Shown here piece after piece: positions 36,758 through 45,200 of a DNA stretch of 64,000 nt. The DNA comes from Adineta ricciae (Eukaryota; Rotifera; Eurotatoria; Adinetida; Adinetidae). The first letter of the stretch is position 1, and every line of letters begins with the position of its first letter. The notes under the pieces were generated by a model, which saw nothing but the letters and a program-made list of their open reading frames with translations, ran no database searches and was not told the DNA's origin. The DNA lies in NCBI GenBank assembly GCA_905250025.1, contig CAJNOJ010000096.1, positions 62,001-126,000 of the forward strand. The letters are read 5' to 3'. Both the position numbers and the translations under genes were made by a program.

Positions 36758-37342
36758 TTTTAGTTGAATATCATATTTTGAGAATAAAGTTAATGTAAAA
36801 ACATTTCTATCGACGATTCAAATTCCATTATATATAGTGATAATTTAATGCCAGTAATTCGATACTGATAAGAAACTCTAATATGCAATTGATTACAAAG
36901 AACGTAATTTCATTATTGATAGAAGAATTAAAATACCAAGCGATCGCATTTATTTTCTTTGTAATGACAAAGTTATATGGATCACAAGAACAATTTTTTA
37001 CCACTAAATCATGAAACTGTAATTTTCTTTGTTAATCAGTGTGCTGTGATACAGTACAGTCATAGGTCATTCAAAATGATAATGCTACAATATGTTTGTT
37101 ATCTCTATCTCTAACTCTTAAATGTAGAATTCGACGAAATGTTTAATCTATGAGAAACAGGATGTAGGTGAGAAGTTCTTCTAGCCAAGTTGAATCATCA
37201 TTCCAATGTCAGTAAAACTAGTTCCTACAACAGAGTTGGCTCTGTTAACTTAGTTTCTTGAGAAAGTATCCAGTCCATACGTGCAATCAATATCGTACTT
37301 TATTTTATCCTCCCAGATTAATACTACCAACTAAGCACTCAA
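36758..37342. other. Intergenic spacer left of the direct repeat
   Basis: About 585 nt of AT-rich sequence with no convincing gene; it should include the promoter of the minus-strand Cys-rich gene. Homology to the right-hand copy of the direct repeat begins at about 37343. Confidence 0.4.
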
Positions 37343-38412
37343 AAATATTGAAAATATCCATTACAGTCAATATCATACTCGATAAATTTTCATTCACCTC
37401 ATCGAAAAACACTCTGCTGCCGTCGTCTTTGTCTAGCACTTCTCACTCGCCCACGACGATGATGATGATTGTAACGATCCCTACAAAGATACTAACAACA
37501 TAGACATTCATCAGTCTCCATCATCATTCCATCAGCTATACTCACGATTCTCCATAATACAAGACCCATCGAAAGTAAACTCAATACGGCTGACGTCACT
37601 ATCATATATGTCGAATATCCATATCGAACAAACGCCGTCGGTAGTTGTAGCTCAGAACTTAGCGAATATGTCCAATGACATGTGAACAGTAGAAGACCAC
37701 CCAATGCAACACTTAGTGCTGACCCGTAGCATAACCAACGAATATGTCGATCGCCATACACCTCTTCATCGGCGAATCCTACCAAAAATACACTTTCGCT
37801 ACAAATCAATGACGAATGAAAGTGAACGAACCAGTACAAGCAATGCCAATGACAACAAAGATCACTCCGATGATGGCTAGACCTAACACAAAGTCAAACC
37901 AATCATATTTTTGAGTGTAAAGTAGATGAATGAGTACCGATAGAAGGTCGTGCCACAGTTTGTTTACATCGTTGTGGTGACCGGTAGAGATGGGCGGGAT
38001 GTTGTAGATGTGCACAAATATCCATCAATCCTGAGTTGATGGTCAGAATATAGCCAGTGACATTGTGAGGTTGAGTGGATGGAGGTGGAATAGGCGTGGT
38101 AAGTGTAGTTAAGAGTGGTGAATGATAGATAGTTTGAAGAGCATCGTCATCTTTGAGAATGACTTTTTCCCATGAGCTAGTGTGAAGAAAGATGGAGAAG
38201 CGTTTGATGAAGAAGAAAGTTACCTAGTTGTGATGGCGATGATGGCAAGAGTGAGTGCAGTGAGCTGAAGTACAAGAAAATTGTAGCGTAACATGTCGTG
38301 AAAGAGAGAGAGAGGGAGAGAGACGAAACGTGTCGAATGTGAAGTGAAGTGAAGGATAGAGGAGCATGTGCAGACATGATATCCAGGGATTGATGTTCAA
38401 ATATTATCCGTC
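37343..38412 (+). repeat. Long direct repeat, left copy (~1.07 kb)
   Basis: Aligns with 43638-44740 at a constant offset of 6295 nt through the whole coding part. The coding stretches 37492-37839 and 43787-44134 translate identically; only a few substitutions are visible by eye, near the two ends and one at 38271/44566. Beyond about 38412 the two copies diverge. The repeat carries a complete four-TM gene on the minus strand plus about 120 nt of its 5' flank. Confidence 0.93.
37399..38294 (-). CDS. Four-TM (claudin/tetraspan-like) membrane protein, copy A
   Basis: Five exons close in frame: 38294-38224, 38176-37938, 37882-37828, 37798-37546, 37491-37399, giving 236 residues. Membrane segments: TM1 LVLQLTALTLAIIAITT directly after MLRYNF; TM2 GLAIIGVIFVVIGIACTGS; TM3 WLCYGSALSVALGGLLLFTC; TM4 YMIVTSAVLSLLSMGLVLW. 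A long loop of about 75 residues between TM1 and TM2 has an N-glycosylation site (NVT) and two Cys; the C-terminal tail is strongly basic (RGRVRSARQRRRQQ). This layout is claudin/PMP22-like, but the claudin W-GLW-C-C signature is not obvious, so the family is inferred. The 29-nt intron 3 (37799-37827) is extremely short; without it the frame breaks. Confidence 0.72.
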
Positions 38413-38987
38413 CTTTATCCAACTATGAACAATTCGCTTTATAAAGGAGTAAACAAATGCAAATCATTTTCTTAAACAATAGAACATAATCAACAAGCTG
38501 TTTGTCTTGCTGTATAGATTGAGAAACAATTACTAGTTGTATGAAATATGATCTAGGTCTTAAAACCGAATCTTGTGTCTATTGTCACCACGACCTATCT
38601 CTACTTTTTCTCGTTTTTTCACGTACTTGTGCTCGGTGACTAATATGCATGTTATTAATCAATTTTTTTGCATAATATACGAAGCTTCATATGATGTTTC
38701 TATTTCTTATTTGTTGATTGTCGTCACATGTCAGTACAATCATGGTCAATGATATATTTCTTGCTCGACGACGTGTTCTGGATGAATAATCACTGAGATA
38801 AAGCTACCTATGGAATGTTGTTATTATGTACTTTTTATTCGTACTTGCCTCTACCGAGTTCGTAAACGAAAAAAGTCATGAGTTTTCGCATCTTCCCATT
38901 ACCTAGATTCATCGAAACATAATCGTTATATGTTAAGTATGAGTATTTAATGATACTATGTTTTACACAGAATTTCAGATATTGTAC
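38413..38987. other. Spacer between the left four-TM gene and the EGF-Hint gene
   Basis: About 575 nt shared as upstream sequence by two divergent genes. No gene seen. TTTCAG at 38974-38979, 8 nt before the EGF-Hint ATG, is acceptor-like. Confidence 0.4.
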
Positions 38988-41900
38988 ATGCAGTCAATAT
39001 CAACGTCGAATCTTCTTGAAATCGAAACTAATAACAATGGTAATGAGCAACCATTTTTTCGGTAAGTTATTTAATATATTTTCAAAGACATATCTCTCAA
39101 AAATGGACTGGTTCATCAAATAGCTATTTTTTCTTAGAAAATGGTGGAATGCAATGCATAATTACCGAGTAAAAGTATCTGTATGCTGCCCGTTGGTTAC
39201 TCTTGGCCTAGTAGCAATGCTTGTCTTCTTCGTTTTCATGCTAATATATCTTCCGAATAGACAACAGCACGTGACAAATGTTCACATAAGTATAGATATC
39301 CTTTGCTCTATTCTTGCTTCTTTTTTTAATATCAACTGATAGTTTCGGTGTCATATGTGCTTATCTATGGGACCAATACAAAGCTCGGGCAAACCACAAA
39401 TGCTACCGATTTGGCGAGCATCGGGAATAATGTATATCACATTTGAGTATTCTACAAGATCTCTTATTGATAGCTTTGTTTAGTTAATGAAATTAACCGA
39501 TCTTACCAGTATTACTGTTGTAAATGCTAAGTTGATTCCAGCACCGATAGACACTGCTCCTAGAAAACGACAAGTAGTGTATGTATATGCTTTCGACGTT
39601 TAAAGATAATTCGTACAAGCTTGATACTCGTATTCTAGAACGGATACAATTCAGTGTCAGAAAGATCCTGGTACAACAGGTGATCTGTTAGTTTTGACAA
39701 TATCAGTGAATTACCCAGGCGATTGTGTTGACACCGACTGTCGAAAAGCATATGATAACAAAATTCGAAATCTGTTTAATAGTTTGCACGCTAAGCTAAG
39801 TTTTGATATCATGTTTGCCAACGGTCAAGTGCCACAAGTAGAGCTGAGTTTCTGTTTCATCGAATCGCTCTCCACAGGTAGTTCGCTCTATTTCAATGAA
39901 TTCATAACATGTAGAGATTTACTGATGCGTTACAATGTTAGCGAGTTGTTGGCCGGCTTGTTCAAATAGTGGTACATGTTCCTCTGATGGAACATGCTTG
40001 TGTCGAACTGGTTGGAATGGTTCAGATTGTACAATACGTATGTGTGAAACTTCAGCAAATTTCAATTCTATTCTTTCTGTTGTAGCCGTCTGCTCGAAAC
40101 CATGCCTGAATAATGGCACTTGTTCTTCACCTAATACTTGCACTTGCATATCGGGATGGGACAGTTCAACTTGTGCAAATCGTAAGCAACCATACTTAGA
40201 AATCTCGACGTTTTCACACATTTATTACAATTTAGCTGTGTGCTCAAAAGTTTGCCTGAACAATGGTACTTGTTCTTCACCGAATACCTGTACTTGTGCA
40301 ACAGGATGGGACGGTTCGACTTGTGAGAATCGTAAGTGAAATCTCTTCGTTGAGTATACTCACTATTATTTCTGCATTAAGCGATCTGTTCTACACAATG
40401 TAAAAACAATGGCACATGCATAGCGCCTAATAAATGTTCTTGTACAACAGGATGGAGTGGCTCAGACTGTTCAGCTCGTACGTATTTATCTCAAACAAAT
40501 GAAAGCAACAAATATATGATTTGAACGATATTATTTACTATTTTCATCATGTTTAGCTGTTTGCTTGCCTCAATGTCAAAACAATGGTACATGTACAGGC
40601 CCTGGCGTGTGCAACTGTACAGCAGACTGGACAGACTCAGATTGTACAACACGTACGTGTGCAATCTTTTCTGCACTGGCGTGAACTGTAGATGATTGCA
40701 ATATTCTTTTCTTCACTCTAGCAATCTGTTCCATTCCATGTTCAAATGGTGTCTGTTCCAAACCTGGAGTTTGTTCGTGTGCAGCGGGATGGCAAGGATC
40801 CGAATGTACAACTCGTATGTAGTCATCTCACGTGGCAGGCACAGCTTATCACAGTATATTTATTGGTATTTGTTTCTATTATAGCTGTCTGTTCGAAACC
40901 ATGCCTGAATAATGGCACTTGTTCTTCACCCAATACTTGCACTTGCATATCGGGATGGGACGGTTCAACTTGTGCGAATCGTAAGCAACCATACTTAGAA
41001 ATCTCGACGTTTTCACACATTTATTACAATTTAGCTGTGTGCTCAAAAGTTTGCCTGAACAATGGTACTTGTTCTTCACCGAATACCTGCACTTGTGCAA
41101 CAGGATGGGACGGTTCGACTTGTGAGAATCGTAAGTAAAAGCTTTAACTTGAGTATACTCATTGTTACTTTTGCATTAAGCGATATGTTCTACACAATGT
41201 AAAAACAATGGCACGTGTATAGCACCCAATAAATGCTCTTGCGTGGCAGGATGGTCTGCGTCCGATTGCTCGGTTGGTAAGTAATTGCAAAGTTCTGGAA
41301 TTCAGAACACTCGCTTGAAATGTGCCTTTCCATTACTTAGCTGTTTGCTTGCCTCAATGTCAAAACAATGGTACATGCGTAAGTCCTGGTTTTTGCAACT
41401 GCTCGTCCGGTTGGACAGGCTCAGATTGTGGAACACGTATGTTCAGTATCTTGAGAATGTTATTGTGCGTATTTGAACATGACATAATTTGATTCGTTCC
41501 AGCAATATGCTTAACACCATGCTCCAATGGTGTTTGTTCGAGTCCTGGCGTTTGTTCATGCGTGACAGGATGGCAAGGATCTGATTGTAAAACTCGTACG
41601 TAGCTGTTCAGTCGTAATCGAAATTTAGCCCTTTAAACTTGCTGGAGATGGATCAGAAGTAATCCTATATCGTACTTCTTTTCAGCTATCTGCTCTCAAG
41701 GTTGTTTCAACGATGCCACGTGTGGATCACCCGGAGTATGTACATGTGCGTCCGGCTGGACAGGATCGAACTGCACCACAGGTATAGAAAAAAACGTCAT
41801 ATGACTACTTGAACCCAAGGCGAACGATATCTTAATAATATAGCGATTTGCCTGCCGGGATGTTTAAACAATGGCATATGCGTTAGCCCAGGTACATGTC

Positions 41901-43463
41901 AATGCACAAATAGTTGGAGCGGATCAAATTGTCAATCGCGTAAGTGATCATTTTACATGAAGATAAAATCTCTTTGGATGTAACTTCAGCTGTTTGCACT
42001 TCCCAATGTTTGAATGGTGGTGTGTGTTCTTCTCCCGGGATCTGTACGTGTTCAACGGGATGGTCTGGCTCTACTTGTGGAACAGGTAAGTGATACGCAC
42101 ATGAAATACATCGATGCAAATATGATTAATGTTTTAGCTATTTGCTCCAGTTCATGTCTGAATGGAGGCGTCTGTCAAACTCCTAATGTTTGTTCCTGTA
42201 CATCTGGATGGACGGGTTCAAACTGTCAAACGCGTATGCATGGATTTTATGTAGAAAATCAGAAACATACTTTTATCTTTCGATATTGCAGCTATGTGCA
42301 CCCCTGTGTGTTCAAACGGGGGCACGTGTTCATCTTCTAGGACGTGTGCATGTGTAACAGGATGGCAAGGAGCAGATTGTACAACGCGTACGTAATGCTT
42401 TTCACGGCAATAGTATTTTTGTATAATGGTTAACCTTAATATTCTAGCTATCTGTTCTCGAGGCTGTGACAATGGTGGCTATTGTGTTAGCCCAGAAAAA
42501 TGCTATTGTCCACAAGAATGGAGTGGACCAGAATGCCGAAAACGAGTTGGTATGATCATATTGTTGCAGTGAACATCTTAGAAAAGATTCTACTCTTCTA
42601 TTTCAGAGAATAATGGTTGTTATTTTGGTAAAGATAGAGTCAATCTTGTCGACGGTGGACAACGCTACATAGAAAATTTAAAAGTTGGAGATCGAGTTTG
42701 GTCGCTTAGTACAGATGGAAACTCATTCATTGAGGACGAAATTGTCTTAATGATGCATAATGAACCGTCCAAAGCAGGTTTGCATATTAGCCCGATGAGT
42801 GAATGCCATCTAGCTTCTTCTTCGTACTAATCTAGAACTTTTCTATACAATGGAAACCGTCGATGATAACACTATTAGTTTGACAACAACTCATAATATT
42901 CCAGTTTATGATGCAGAAATGGATCAAATCAGATATCTACGTGCATCGAAAGTAACGACCAAGCATCACCTGATTCTGTTCAATAGAAGATTAGCAATCA
43001 GAAACATCACCACTACTTCTCGTCTGGGTTATTACTCACCATTAACTTTGAGTGGATATTTATATGTCAACAATATATCAACATCTGTTTTTTCTGACAG
43101 GTATAGTTTCTTTCATAGAGTGGAAAAGTTCATCAGATTGATTTCTTAGCCAAAGGGAAAGATAGTAACATGCTGATGTGTTTTCTTTATCTATTTAGCT
43201 ATGGAGTATCGCCAGACACTCTTCAACGCTTCTTCACACCTATTCGTGTGTACTATTGCGTCATGAGATGGTATTTTGGTAACAATTATGATCCCTTTCA
43301 AACCAATACGAAAGAAGGCTTGCATCCTTTCATTCAATATCTCAAAGAAAATAAGCATATGTTCAAAATTATTTATTTCAGCCTCAAATACGTCTTTCTT
43401 ATCTCAATATTTTATCTCTTCTATAAGTATTTGTCCATCATTATTTCTTCAAAAGTCCATTGA
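38988..43463 (+). CDS. Single-pass EGF-repeat protein with Hedgehog-type Hint autoprocessing domain
   Basis: The ATG at 38988 opens a short cytoplasmic tail. A signal-anchor follows ([20 protein letters not shown]), then a ~130-residue extracellular region (ending near [10 protein letters not shown]) of unknown fold, then 17 EGF-like repeats from 39950 to 42545. Each repeat has six Cys in the pattern C-x3-C-x3-4-G-x-C-x5-C-x-C-x2-GW-x4-C, one exon per repeat, all phase-1 introns. Exon 42607-42777 begins the Hint domain: [38 protein letters not shown]; the Cys of GCYF is the expected catalytic Cys. Exon 42836-43100 supplies [12 protein letters not shown] (T-x-x-H) and [12 protein letters not shown], then [20 protein letters not shown]. 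Exon 43199-43463 ends with a hydrophobic segment ([20 protein letters not shown]). No Hedgehog signalling domain is present. Hint domains of this kind cleave themselves off their N-terminal partner. Total about 950-1000 residues. Confidence 0.85.
40085..41596 (+). repeat. Internal tandem duplication of five EGF exons
   Basis: EGF repeats 2-6 (40085-40813) and 7-11 (40885-41596) correspond one to one, offset about 800 nt. Repeats 2/7 and 3/8 are almost identical, including the 54-nt intron between them (starting GTAAGCAACC); 4/9 are similar; 5/10 and 6/11 have clearly diverged. Order and exon phase are conserved. Confidence 0.88.
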
Positions 43464-43637
43464 ATACTGATTTAAATTGATCAAATCTTTTCTACAAGTA
43501 GCATACACTCTCAATATACAATATTGCTGGTGAGCTTGTTTTCTTTGATACAGTATTTTTTTATTTACTTTCAATAAACTGATATAACAATGTTTAAGTT
43601 CATTTTTCCGGATTAACAATAAGAAATATCTGTTCAA

Positions 43638-44740
43638 AAAAATCGAAAATATCCATTACAGTCAATATCATACTCGATAGATTTTCATCCACCTCATCGA
43701 AAAACACTTTGCTGTCGTCGTCTTTGTCTAGCACTTCTCACTCGCCCACGACGATGATGATGATTGTAACGATCCCTACAAAGATACTAACAACATAGAC
43801 ATTCATCAGTCTCCATCATCATTCCATCAGCTATACTCACGATTCTCCATAATACAAGACCCATCGAAAGTAAACTCAATACGGCTGACGTCACTATCAT
43901 ATATGTCGAATATCCATATCGAACAAACGCCGTCGGTAGTTGTAGCTCAGAACTTAGCGAATATGTCCAATGACATGTGAACAGTAGAAGACCACCCAAT
44001 GCAACACTTAGTGCTGACCCGTAGCATAACCAACGAATATGTCGATCGCCATACACCTCTTCATCGGCGAATCCTACCAAAAATACACTTTCGCTACAAA
44101 TCAATGACGAATGAAAGTGAACGAACCAGTACAAGCAATGCCAATGACAACAAAGATCACTCCGATGATGGCTAGACCTAACACAAAGTCAAACCAATCA
44201 TATTTTTGAGTGTAAAGTAGATGAATGAGTACCGATAGAAGGTCGTGCCACAGTTTGTTTACATCGTTGTGGTGACCGGTAGAGATGGGCGGGATGTTGT
44301 AGATGTGCACAAATATCCATCAATCCTGAGTTGATGGTCAGAATATAGCCAGTGACATTGTGAGGTTGAGTGGATGGAGGTGGAATAGGCGTGGTAAGTG
44401 TAGTTAAGAGTGGTGAATGATAGATAGTTTGAAGAGCATCGTCATCTTTGAGAATGACTTTTTCCCATGAGCTAGTGTGAAGAAAGATGGAGAAGCGTTT
44501 GATGAAGAAGAAAGTTACCTAGTTGTGATGGCGATGATGGCAAGAGTGAGTGCAGTGAGCTGAAGTGCAAGAAAATTGTAGCGTAACATGTCGTGAAAGA
44601 GAGAGAGAGGGAGAGAGACGAAACGTGTCGAATGTGGAGTGAAGAAGATGTAACTGAATGTGAAGTGAAGTGAAGTGAAGGATAGAGGAGCATGTGCAGA
44701 CATGATATCCAGGGATTGATGTTCAAATATTATTCGTTCC
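43638..44740 (+). repeat. Long direct repeat, right copy (~1.1 kb)
   Basis: Right partner of 37343-38412, same orientation. It differs mainly by an insertion of about 33 nt in the 5' flank of the gene (around 44640-44675, within GAAGTGAAGT-type direct repeats) and a handful of substitutions. Homology stops at about 44740. Together with the left copy it brackets the EGF-Hint gene, which is on the opposite strand to the repeated genes. Confidence 0.93.
43694..44589 (-). CDS. Four-TM (claudin/tetraspan-like) membrane protein, copy B
   Basis: Near-identical copy of the gene at 37399-38294, with every exon at +6295 nt (44589-44519, 44471-44233, 44177-44123, 44093-43841, 43786-43694). It is also 236 residues, with the same four membrane segments, glycosylated first loop and basic tail. 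The only coding differences I see are a Val/Ala exchange in TM1 and two substitutions near the C-terminal end. All splice sites and the frame are intact, so both copies look functional. The start MLRYNF was chosen because the other frames upstream are CT-rich low complexity. Confidence 0.72.
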
Positions 44741-45200
44741 TTCTTCGATTAAAATTCAATTTCGTTTTATATCGATGTGATCTGTGTGAACTGATTCGAT
44801 TTACATACAATCAATGAAGTCCAGTATTTGCTGTGATAAAGATAAGTTCTTATTTGTTCAGAAGCAGTTGAAAAAAATTTTTCAATGTTTTTCACTCGAC
44901 ACACACGCGCACACAGTTATAAATAAATGACATTCTTTCGAGAGAACAACAGAAAAAAAACCACACAAGCAAACACACACGCACTCGAACGTATATATGT
45001 ATATACACAAAATTGCTCTTCGATCGTTGTTCTCGAGAATAAAAATGATGATCTGCCTAGACTAACAAATACTTAATGAGAAATGAAGAAATAAGGAGAG
45101 AAAAAAATAGATATGAAATTTTTCGTTTCATGCAAAGTGAAAAGAAAAAGCATATTGCACACAAAAATGACCATAATACTGATGAGATTCTATTTTGTTC
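44741..45200. other. Intergenic spacer right of the direct repeat
   Basis: About 460 nt with short CA/CG runs (about 44899-44915) and an ATAT/GTAT run (about 44990-45010). No gene is seen. It holds the Sbf 3' UTR and the promoter of the right four-TM copy. Confidence 0.4.

Follow-up and report, generated by a model that had tools for sequence, protein, structure and literature searches.

Tagging of a protein with a sterol by its own Hint domain is established for the Hedgehog ligands. Bürglin (2008; PMC2362128) describes nematode (Warthog, Groundhog, Quahog and the Xiphinema Thog) and cnidarian Hog proteins in which a C-terminal Hint domain and an adduct recognition region follow varied N-terminal parts, with no Hedgehog domain. 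In the same account, N-terminal domains of Hog-related proteins of C. elegans are also found without Hog, and Thog has a stretch of ~70 residues that are nearly all Thr and Ser. Hog proteins with exchanged N-terminal parts, including a Thr/Ser-rich one, are already known from that description. Lophohog, a Hog protein of Spiralia whose N-terminal domain is unique to it, has been described from molluscs and annelids (PMC9695228 and PMC5103448). Here we analyse a gene of the bdelloid rotifer Adineta ricciae that joins 17 EGF-like repeats to a C-terminal Hint domain. It lies at positions 38988-43463 of a stretch of 64,000 nucleotides (assembly GCA_905250025.1, contig CAJNOJ010000096.1, positions 62,001 to 126,000, forward strand); this whole stretch is called the window, and its numbering is used for all coordinates of the gene. 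Labels such as C3, C16 or C255 denote further loci of the same genome. The product is probably a Hog-type autoprocessing surface protein that cuts itself at Gly764/Cys765.

Architecture of the gene and its second copy

The gene is a single coding sequence of 25 exons and 24 GT-AG introns (48-98 bp), which encodes 993 residues and ends in its only stop codon. An automatic splice search, which returned 40 exons and 635 residues, was rejected as over-splitting the gene. The clean model, without any internal stop and with the same structure in a second copy at C16, bears out the one frame-consistent gene proposed in an initial annotation of the window. The parts that had been listed there were also recovered: the N-terminal anchor corresponds to a hydropathy segment at residues 35-67, and 17 EGF-like repeats could be counted, one to an exon, with uniform linkers of four residues. 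A profile search identified the C-terminal domain as Hint (PF01079; 90 bits, E = 2.2e-25, above the cut-off), the match covering residues 760-955 and positions 8-205 of the 213 in the profile. Of the Hint motifs, GCYF, TTTHNI and GYYSPLT could be placed in the protein, and VGDRVWSL is present in the translation. The Hedgehog signalling domain (HH_signal, PF01085) gave no Pfam match in the 993-residue protein, in line with the initial annotation. Among the Pfam EGF models EGF_TEN scored best (E = 1.1e-89), and EGF_2 matched 15 stretches. Four PDB sequences were matched at E <=1, all of them Hedgehog, with a best E of 2.9e-9. The stretch 42607-43463, previously given as the Hint exons, does hold this domain, with the correction that introns at 42778-42835 and 43101-43198 interrupt it. 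A second hydrophobic segment (residues 961-990), absent from that annotation, follows the Hint domain and its Hog-like tail.

The second copy, within C16:404001-411000, allows the integrity of the gene to be assessed. All 25 exons are of equal length in the two copies, with no exonic indel, and all 24 introns of the C16 copy have GT and AG ends (48 splice ends). Counting the stop, 927 of 994 codons are identical in translation; all 110 Cys are common to both, and there is no internal stop. The Nei-Gojobori method yielded 0.201 synonymous (dS) and 0.034 nonsynonymous (dN) substitutions per site and a ratio (omega) of 0.17, from 125.5 synonymous differences over 712 sites and 75.5 nonsynonymous differences over 2,267 sites. 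For residues 1-217 omega is 0.21, for the EGF repeats 0.14, for the Hint domain (764-905) 0.29 and for residues 906-993 0.17. The EGF and Hint parts of the same reading frame are both under purifying selection.

Taken together, the exon lengths, splice ends, Cys and omega of the two copies argue for a single selected gene rather than two genes or a pseudogene. Two adjoining genes, one for an EGF membrane protein and one for a Hint-only protein, could have been joined wrongly, an account that we consider very improbable: the spliced frame runs without a stop from EGF exon 22 into Hint exon 23, the same junction is present without an exonic gap in C16, and EGF motifs stand directly before Hint in the relative C255. 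As both copies join the last EGF exon to the first Hint exon in phase 1, separate mRNAs for the EGF and the Hint exons are also unlikely. The position of the gene between flanking repeats that are 96.4% identical might suggest a decaying pseudogene or a product of the assembly. This explanation, to which we give hardly any credence, is opposed by the omega of 0.17, by the lack of a stop or frameshift in either copy, and by the occurrence of the C16 copy with matching flanks on both sides.

The predicted self-cut and possible ways of resolving the thioester

The residues needed for a Hedgehog-like cut are in place. Gly764-Cys765 and T834-x-x-H837 are intact, and G764, C765, H811, T834 and H837 are identical in C16. 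For a wider comparison we aligned 21 of the 55 Hint chains of the genome, selected by patterns that contain Cys1, so that the presence of Cys1 in 21/21 rows partly reflects this selection. The final His of the [TS]-x-x-H motif is found in every row, preceded by T in 11 and by S in 10. In the alignments with PDB sequences and in the MAFFT alignment, His811 takes the place of the general-base Asp of Hedgehog (D46 of fly Hint); in the former it faces His in 6tyy and Asp in 1at0. His occupies this place in 18 of the 21 rows, the others being C4 (Ile), C75 (Asn) and C180a (Asp). In fly Hint, the D46H exchange is described as widening the range of accepted sterols (PMC8529194, citing Zhao 2019).

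These observations suggest the following course of events. The N-terminal anchor would bring the chain into the secretory pathway, with the N-domain encoded by exon 5, the 17-EGF rod and the Hint domain outside, and the second hydrophobic segment, judged from hydropathy, would hold the Hog part to the membrane. By analogy with Hedgehog biochemistry, and given the conserved residues, Cys765 would attack the carbonyl of Gly764 to form a thioester, assisted by T834 and H837. A nucleophile bound by the tail would then resolve the thioester. The leading candidate is a sterol or another membrane alcohol activated by His811, to which we give about even odds if the self-cut takes place; the alternative is water. 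The predicted products, with masses calculated for the unglycosylated chains, are an anchor-EGF part of 79 kDa, whose C-terminus would be either free or tagged with a lipid, and a Hog fragment of 27 kDa; lipidation of the EGF chain is possible. The initial annotation had the Hint cut release or lipidate the EGF chain. Release by this cut alone we cannot uphold: the N-terminal membrane anchor would still hold the chain, and a second cut would be needed. Were a convertase to act at the basic site that precedes the N-domain, the rod could come free of its anchor; otherwise the rod would remain on the cell.

The tail is less easily read. The TPIR and EGLHPF blocks are similar to tails of other Hint genes of this genome that resemble a sterol recognition region (SRR). 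We tentatively place Phe950 at SHH Tyr435. In human SHH the SRR motif HPR consists of H374, P379 and R381, of which the His contacts cholesterol, and Y435F had a mild effect in simulation (PMC7906309). Placed by eye, the position of the HPR His holds Gln also in C255 and C95, and His in C114a, C114b and C70. In the window protein, His stands in for the general-base Asp and Gln for the sterol-recruiting His, which makes a sterol a candidate adduct and no more.

Several observations count against a self-cutting, lipid-transferring protein. The HPR motif of SHH reads Q915-P920-R922 in both copies, so that the cholesterol-contacting His is replaced by Gln915. Val902 occupies the place of the second Cys conserved in Hedgehog Hint, a place at which 6/21 rows have Cys. 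Gly before Cys1, which we considered as a mark of the family, was rejected as such, being present in the window and C16 rows only (2/21). The omega of the Hint domain is the highest of the four segments (0.29, the others being 0.14-0.21), and the basic site of the window protein reads P-R-K-R, with no Arg at P4. The statements on sterol and on topology are themselves predictions from sequence.

Part of this evidence would suit a variant of the self-cutting protein in which the Hint domain cuts and water resolves the thioester. The cut would then serve to detach the EGF rod, with no lipid added to it, from the Hog part held at the membrane. Gln in place of the HPR His in the window, C16, C255 and C95 (the latter two placed by eye) agrees with hydrolysis, as does the extra hydrophobic segment in the tail, which may be an anchor instead of a sterol binder. 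It is countered by the His at the general-base place, which is reported to retain sterol use in fly Hint, and by P920, R922 and the EGLHPF block, all kept in both copies; we give hydrolysis an appreciable, if rather less than even, chance. The missing second Cys, the missing HPR His, the high omega of the Hint domain and the variation of relatives at the general-base place (Ile, Asn or Asp in the three named above) could also point to a Hint domain that no longer cuts. Its fold would then be retained as a structural or binding domain of an intact protein, which, with both ends in the membrane, would form a looped adhesion stalk. Such a protein is unlikely in view of the [TS]-x-x-H His in all aligned rows and of the conservation of Cys765, T834, H837 and H811 between copies that have diverged to a dS of 0.20. 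A protein that cuts itself at Gly764/Cys765 therefore stays our preferred reading.

Related Hint genes and features of the locus

The Hog-type protein without a Hedgehog domain that had been proposed stands by its sequence, as one member of a gene family and not as a lone oddity. A search of the 130-Mb assembly (1033 contigs) with PF01079 returned 79 exon matches, a lower bound, which chain into about 55 gene-like units, some of them single-exon and possibly fragments. HH_signal gave no match in the genome; the control of this search likewise gave none in any genome, and absence is not established by it. In a tree of the 21 aligned Hint rows, in which five of the 18 inner branches stay open, the window and C16 fall into a clade with C255, C95, C114a, C114b, C561a, C561b and C4 (support 95/97). 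The architectures of these relatives were read from open frames and not from full gene models. A Thr-rich stretch is found in C95 and, together with an anchor, in C114a and C114b, and C255 combines an anchor and a long Ser/Thr stretch with three EGF repeats of the type seen in the window protein directly before Hint. C255 is the sister of C95 (99/98) and not of the window, from which it follows that the EGF stalk was either ancestral and then lost, or moved.

Other pairings were seen along the way. EGF and Hint are paired separately in C3 and C8, where EGF repeats of another type stand some way ahead of the Hint domain. In C75 and C357, Hint is preceded by Cys-rich modules that bear the signature ETDxDCGG, two of them in C357. 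In C4 (locus L036, from position 2025), a long open frame that by eye is seven-helix receptor-like begins soon after the Hint exon and is probably a neighbouring gene.

A hydrophobic segment after the tail is not confined to the window protein. With a 19-residue mean of at least 1.6 as the threshold, it was found in the window, C16, C255, C114a, C114b and C357, the last outside the clade; by eye it is also present in C95 and C561b. C70 reached only 1.3. The tails of C3, C8, C97, C963, C208, C273, C43, C104, C180a and C180b have no such segment or stay below 1.4; no tail was located for C75, C387a and C387b, and C4 and C561a were left without a call.

The N-domain is likewise shared. Among the loci examined, a phmmer search with exon 5 returned C16, C357 (E = 3e-9), C387b (3e-7), C78 (4e-7), C387a (2e-6) and C75 (2e-5). 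C95 was rejected as an N-domain gene, its N-terminal resemblance not being significant (E = 0.19). Across the genome, 26 N-domain places were found at E <=0.01, a few of them weak; seven of these are followed within 7 kb by a Hint match on their own strand, and the other 19 are not. The domain had no Pfam match at E <=1 in any of the seven rows, and its sole PDB match was not significant (E = 0.39). A single-sequence structure prediction for exon 5, with a mean predicted local distance difference test score of 52.7, was set aside. Between the anchor and the N-domain, a basic cluster is present in all seven members read (out of the 26 places): RKR in the window and C16, KRRR in C387a and C387b, KKRR in C357, QRR in C78 and RKKR in C75. 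C95, which has no significant N-domain match, carries RRKR. These clusters are candidate convertase sites.

The conserved ends and exchanged stalks of these proteins suggest that the stalk determines what is displayed and the Hog part how it is finished. In a broader and distinctly tentative proposal, which we think more likely to fail than to hold, bdelloids, in which HH_signal was undetected, would use the Hog tail as a general finishing module for exchangeable surface stalks, be they 17 EGF repeats, mucin-like, mucin plus EGF or other Cys-rich modules. A convertase would cut at a basic site to free one end of the stalk, and at the other a Hint cut would add a sterol or membrane-alcohol tag chosen by the His general base.

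The features of the gene are listed in Table 1.

Table 1. Position of the exons, domains and hydrophobic segments of the EGF-Hint gene in the window
Feature	Window coordinates	Strand	Basis
N-terminus, predicted to be cytosolic: exon 1 (38988-39061) and beginning of exon 2 (from 39138)	38988..39183	+	Gene model
N-terminal hydrophobic anchor, residues ~41-63	39184..39252	+	Kyte-Doolittle peak 2.73 within residues 35-67; position from gene model
Remainder of exon 2, exon 3 (39343-39431) and exon 4 (39484-39578); ends in RKR, residues 132-134 (39562-39570)	39253..39578	+	
Exon 5: 79-residue N-domain, 4 Cys and 1 Phe invariant in 7 rows; present in other Hint genes	39639..39877	+	
Exons 6-22: 17 EGF repeats, each encoded by a single phase 1-1 exon of 93, 96 or 102 bp	39942..42549	+	Gene model, Pfam
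Exon 23: linker and N-terminal portion of Hint; Gly764 (42615-42617), Cys765 (42618-42620), His811 at the general-base place	42607..42777	+	
58-bp intron within Hint, TACTAAT before CTAG; length and splice ends equal in C16	42778..42835	+	
Exon 24: remaining Hint, T-x-x-H (T834-H837), SPLT block	42836..43100	+	
5' part of exon 25: region resembling an adduct/sterol recognition region, with TPIR 919-922 and EGLHPF 945-950	43199..43361	+	Pfam Hint to residue 955, profile 205/213
C-terminal hydrophobic segment (residues 961-990), end of protein, stop codon (43461-43463)	43362..43463	+	Hydropathy, gene model

The flanking repeat is a 1.1-kb direct repeat (window 37339-38415 and 43634-44742), each copy sharing about 90-92% identity with the corresponding copy at C16. 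Being closer to each other (96.4%) than to C16, the two window copies seem homogenised. Two minus-strand open frames in the upstream repeat gave no Pfam match. Inside the gene, EGF exons 7-8 (40086-40331; repeats 2-3) and 12-13 (40885-41130; repeats 7-8) are 95-99% identical, with 100% identity of the intervening intron, as part of a five-repeat duplication. This exceeds their identity to C16 (88-93%), and gene conversion between the two exon pairs is probable. Within window 38970-38987, a TTTCAG ends nine bases 5' of the start codon and may be a trans-splice acceptor for a spliced leader. A sequence taken as the bdelloid spliced leader occurs in the assembly at 46 sites with <=3 mismatches (41 with one mismatch, many of them clustered); its exact letters and a reversed control each gave 0. 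Rfam returned no match in window 30000-52000. On the minus strand, a neighbouring gene at window 45520-47125 matches a myotubularin-related model (E = 5.6e-9) and, below the cut-off, PH.

Relation to known Hog, Hedgehog and teneurin proteins

If the proposed processing is correct, the same machinery would operate behind EGF rods and mucin-like stalks, making the Hog tail a portable processing module in animals. The general-base His in 18/21 aligned rows offers natural proteins in which to ask whether the laboratory D46H result mirrors real chemistry. The family also raises the question whether an animal that lacks a Hedgehog ligand has expanded its set of Hog genes; the HH_signal search made here cannot settle it.

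With the Hedgehog proteins (Hh/Shh) the window protein shares the Hint fold, the Gly-Cys cut site, T-x-x-H, the SPLT block and the P and R of HPR. It differs from them in having no signalling domain, and in its His for the general-base Asp, Val for the second Cys and Gln for the HPR His. On sequence grounds, with neither the signal domain nor the general-base Asp, it is a Hog protein and not a Hedgehog. Teneurins have an N-terminal anchor that is followed by tandem EGF repeats, and the window protein resembles them in this layout and in its best Pfam EGF model, EGF_TEN. In contrast to teneurins, it is matched by the teneurin EGF models only and by no other teneurin domain, and carries Hint at its C-terminus.

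From the descriptions alone, Lophohog can be likened to the window protein as a spiralian Hog with an N-terminal domain of its own. No Pfam family matched the N-terminal part of the window protein, the N-terminal domains of Warthog, Groundhog and Quahog included as far as Pfam has models for them. In the literature searched, mostly open-access papers, we saw neither an EGF-Hog fusion nor a Hog gene of a rotifer reported. As described, the nematode and cnidarian Hog proteins are like the window protein in combining a C-terminal Hint domain with another N-terminal part and no Hedgehog domain. The Thr/Ser stretch of Thog resembles the mucin-like relatives in this genome, and the nematode N-terminal domains that occur without Hog are paralleled by the 19 of 26 N-domain places that have no Hint within 7 kb downstream. 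Many of the described Hog proteins have signal peptides, whereas the window protein has an N-terminal anchor, a 17-EGF rod and a hydrophobic segment after the tail. What seems to be new here is this 17-repeat EGF rod in a protein that has a hydrophobic segment at either end, together with the exchange of stalks within one genome.

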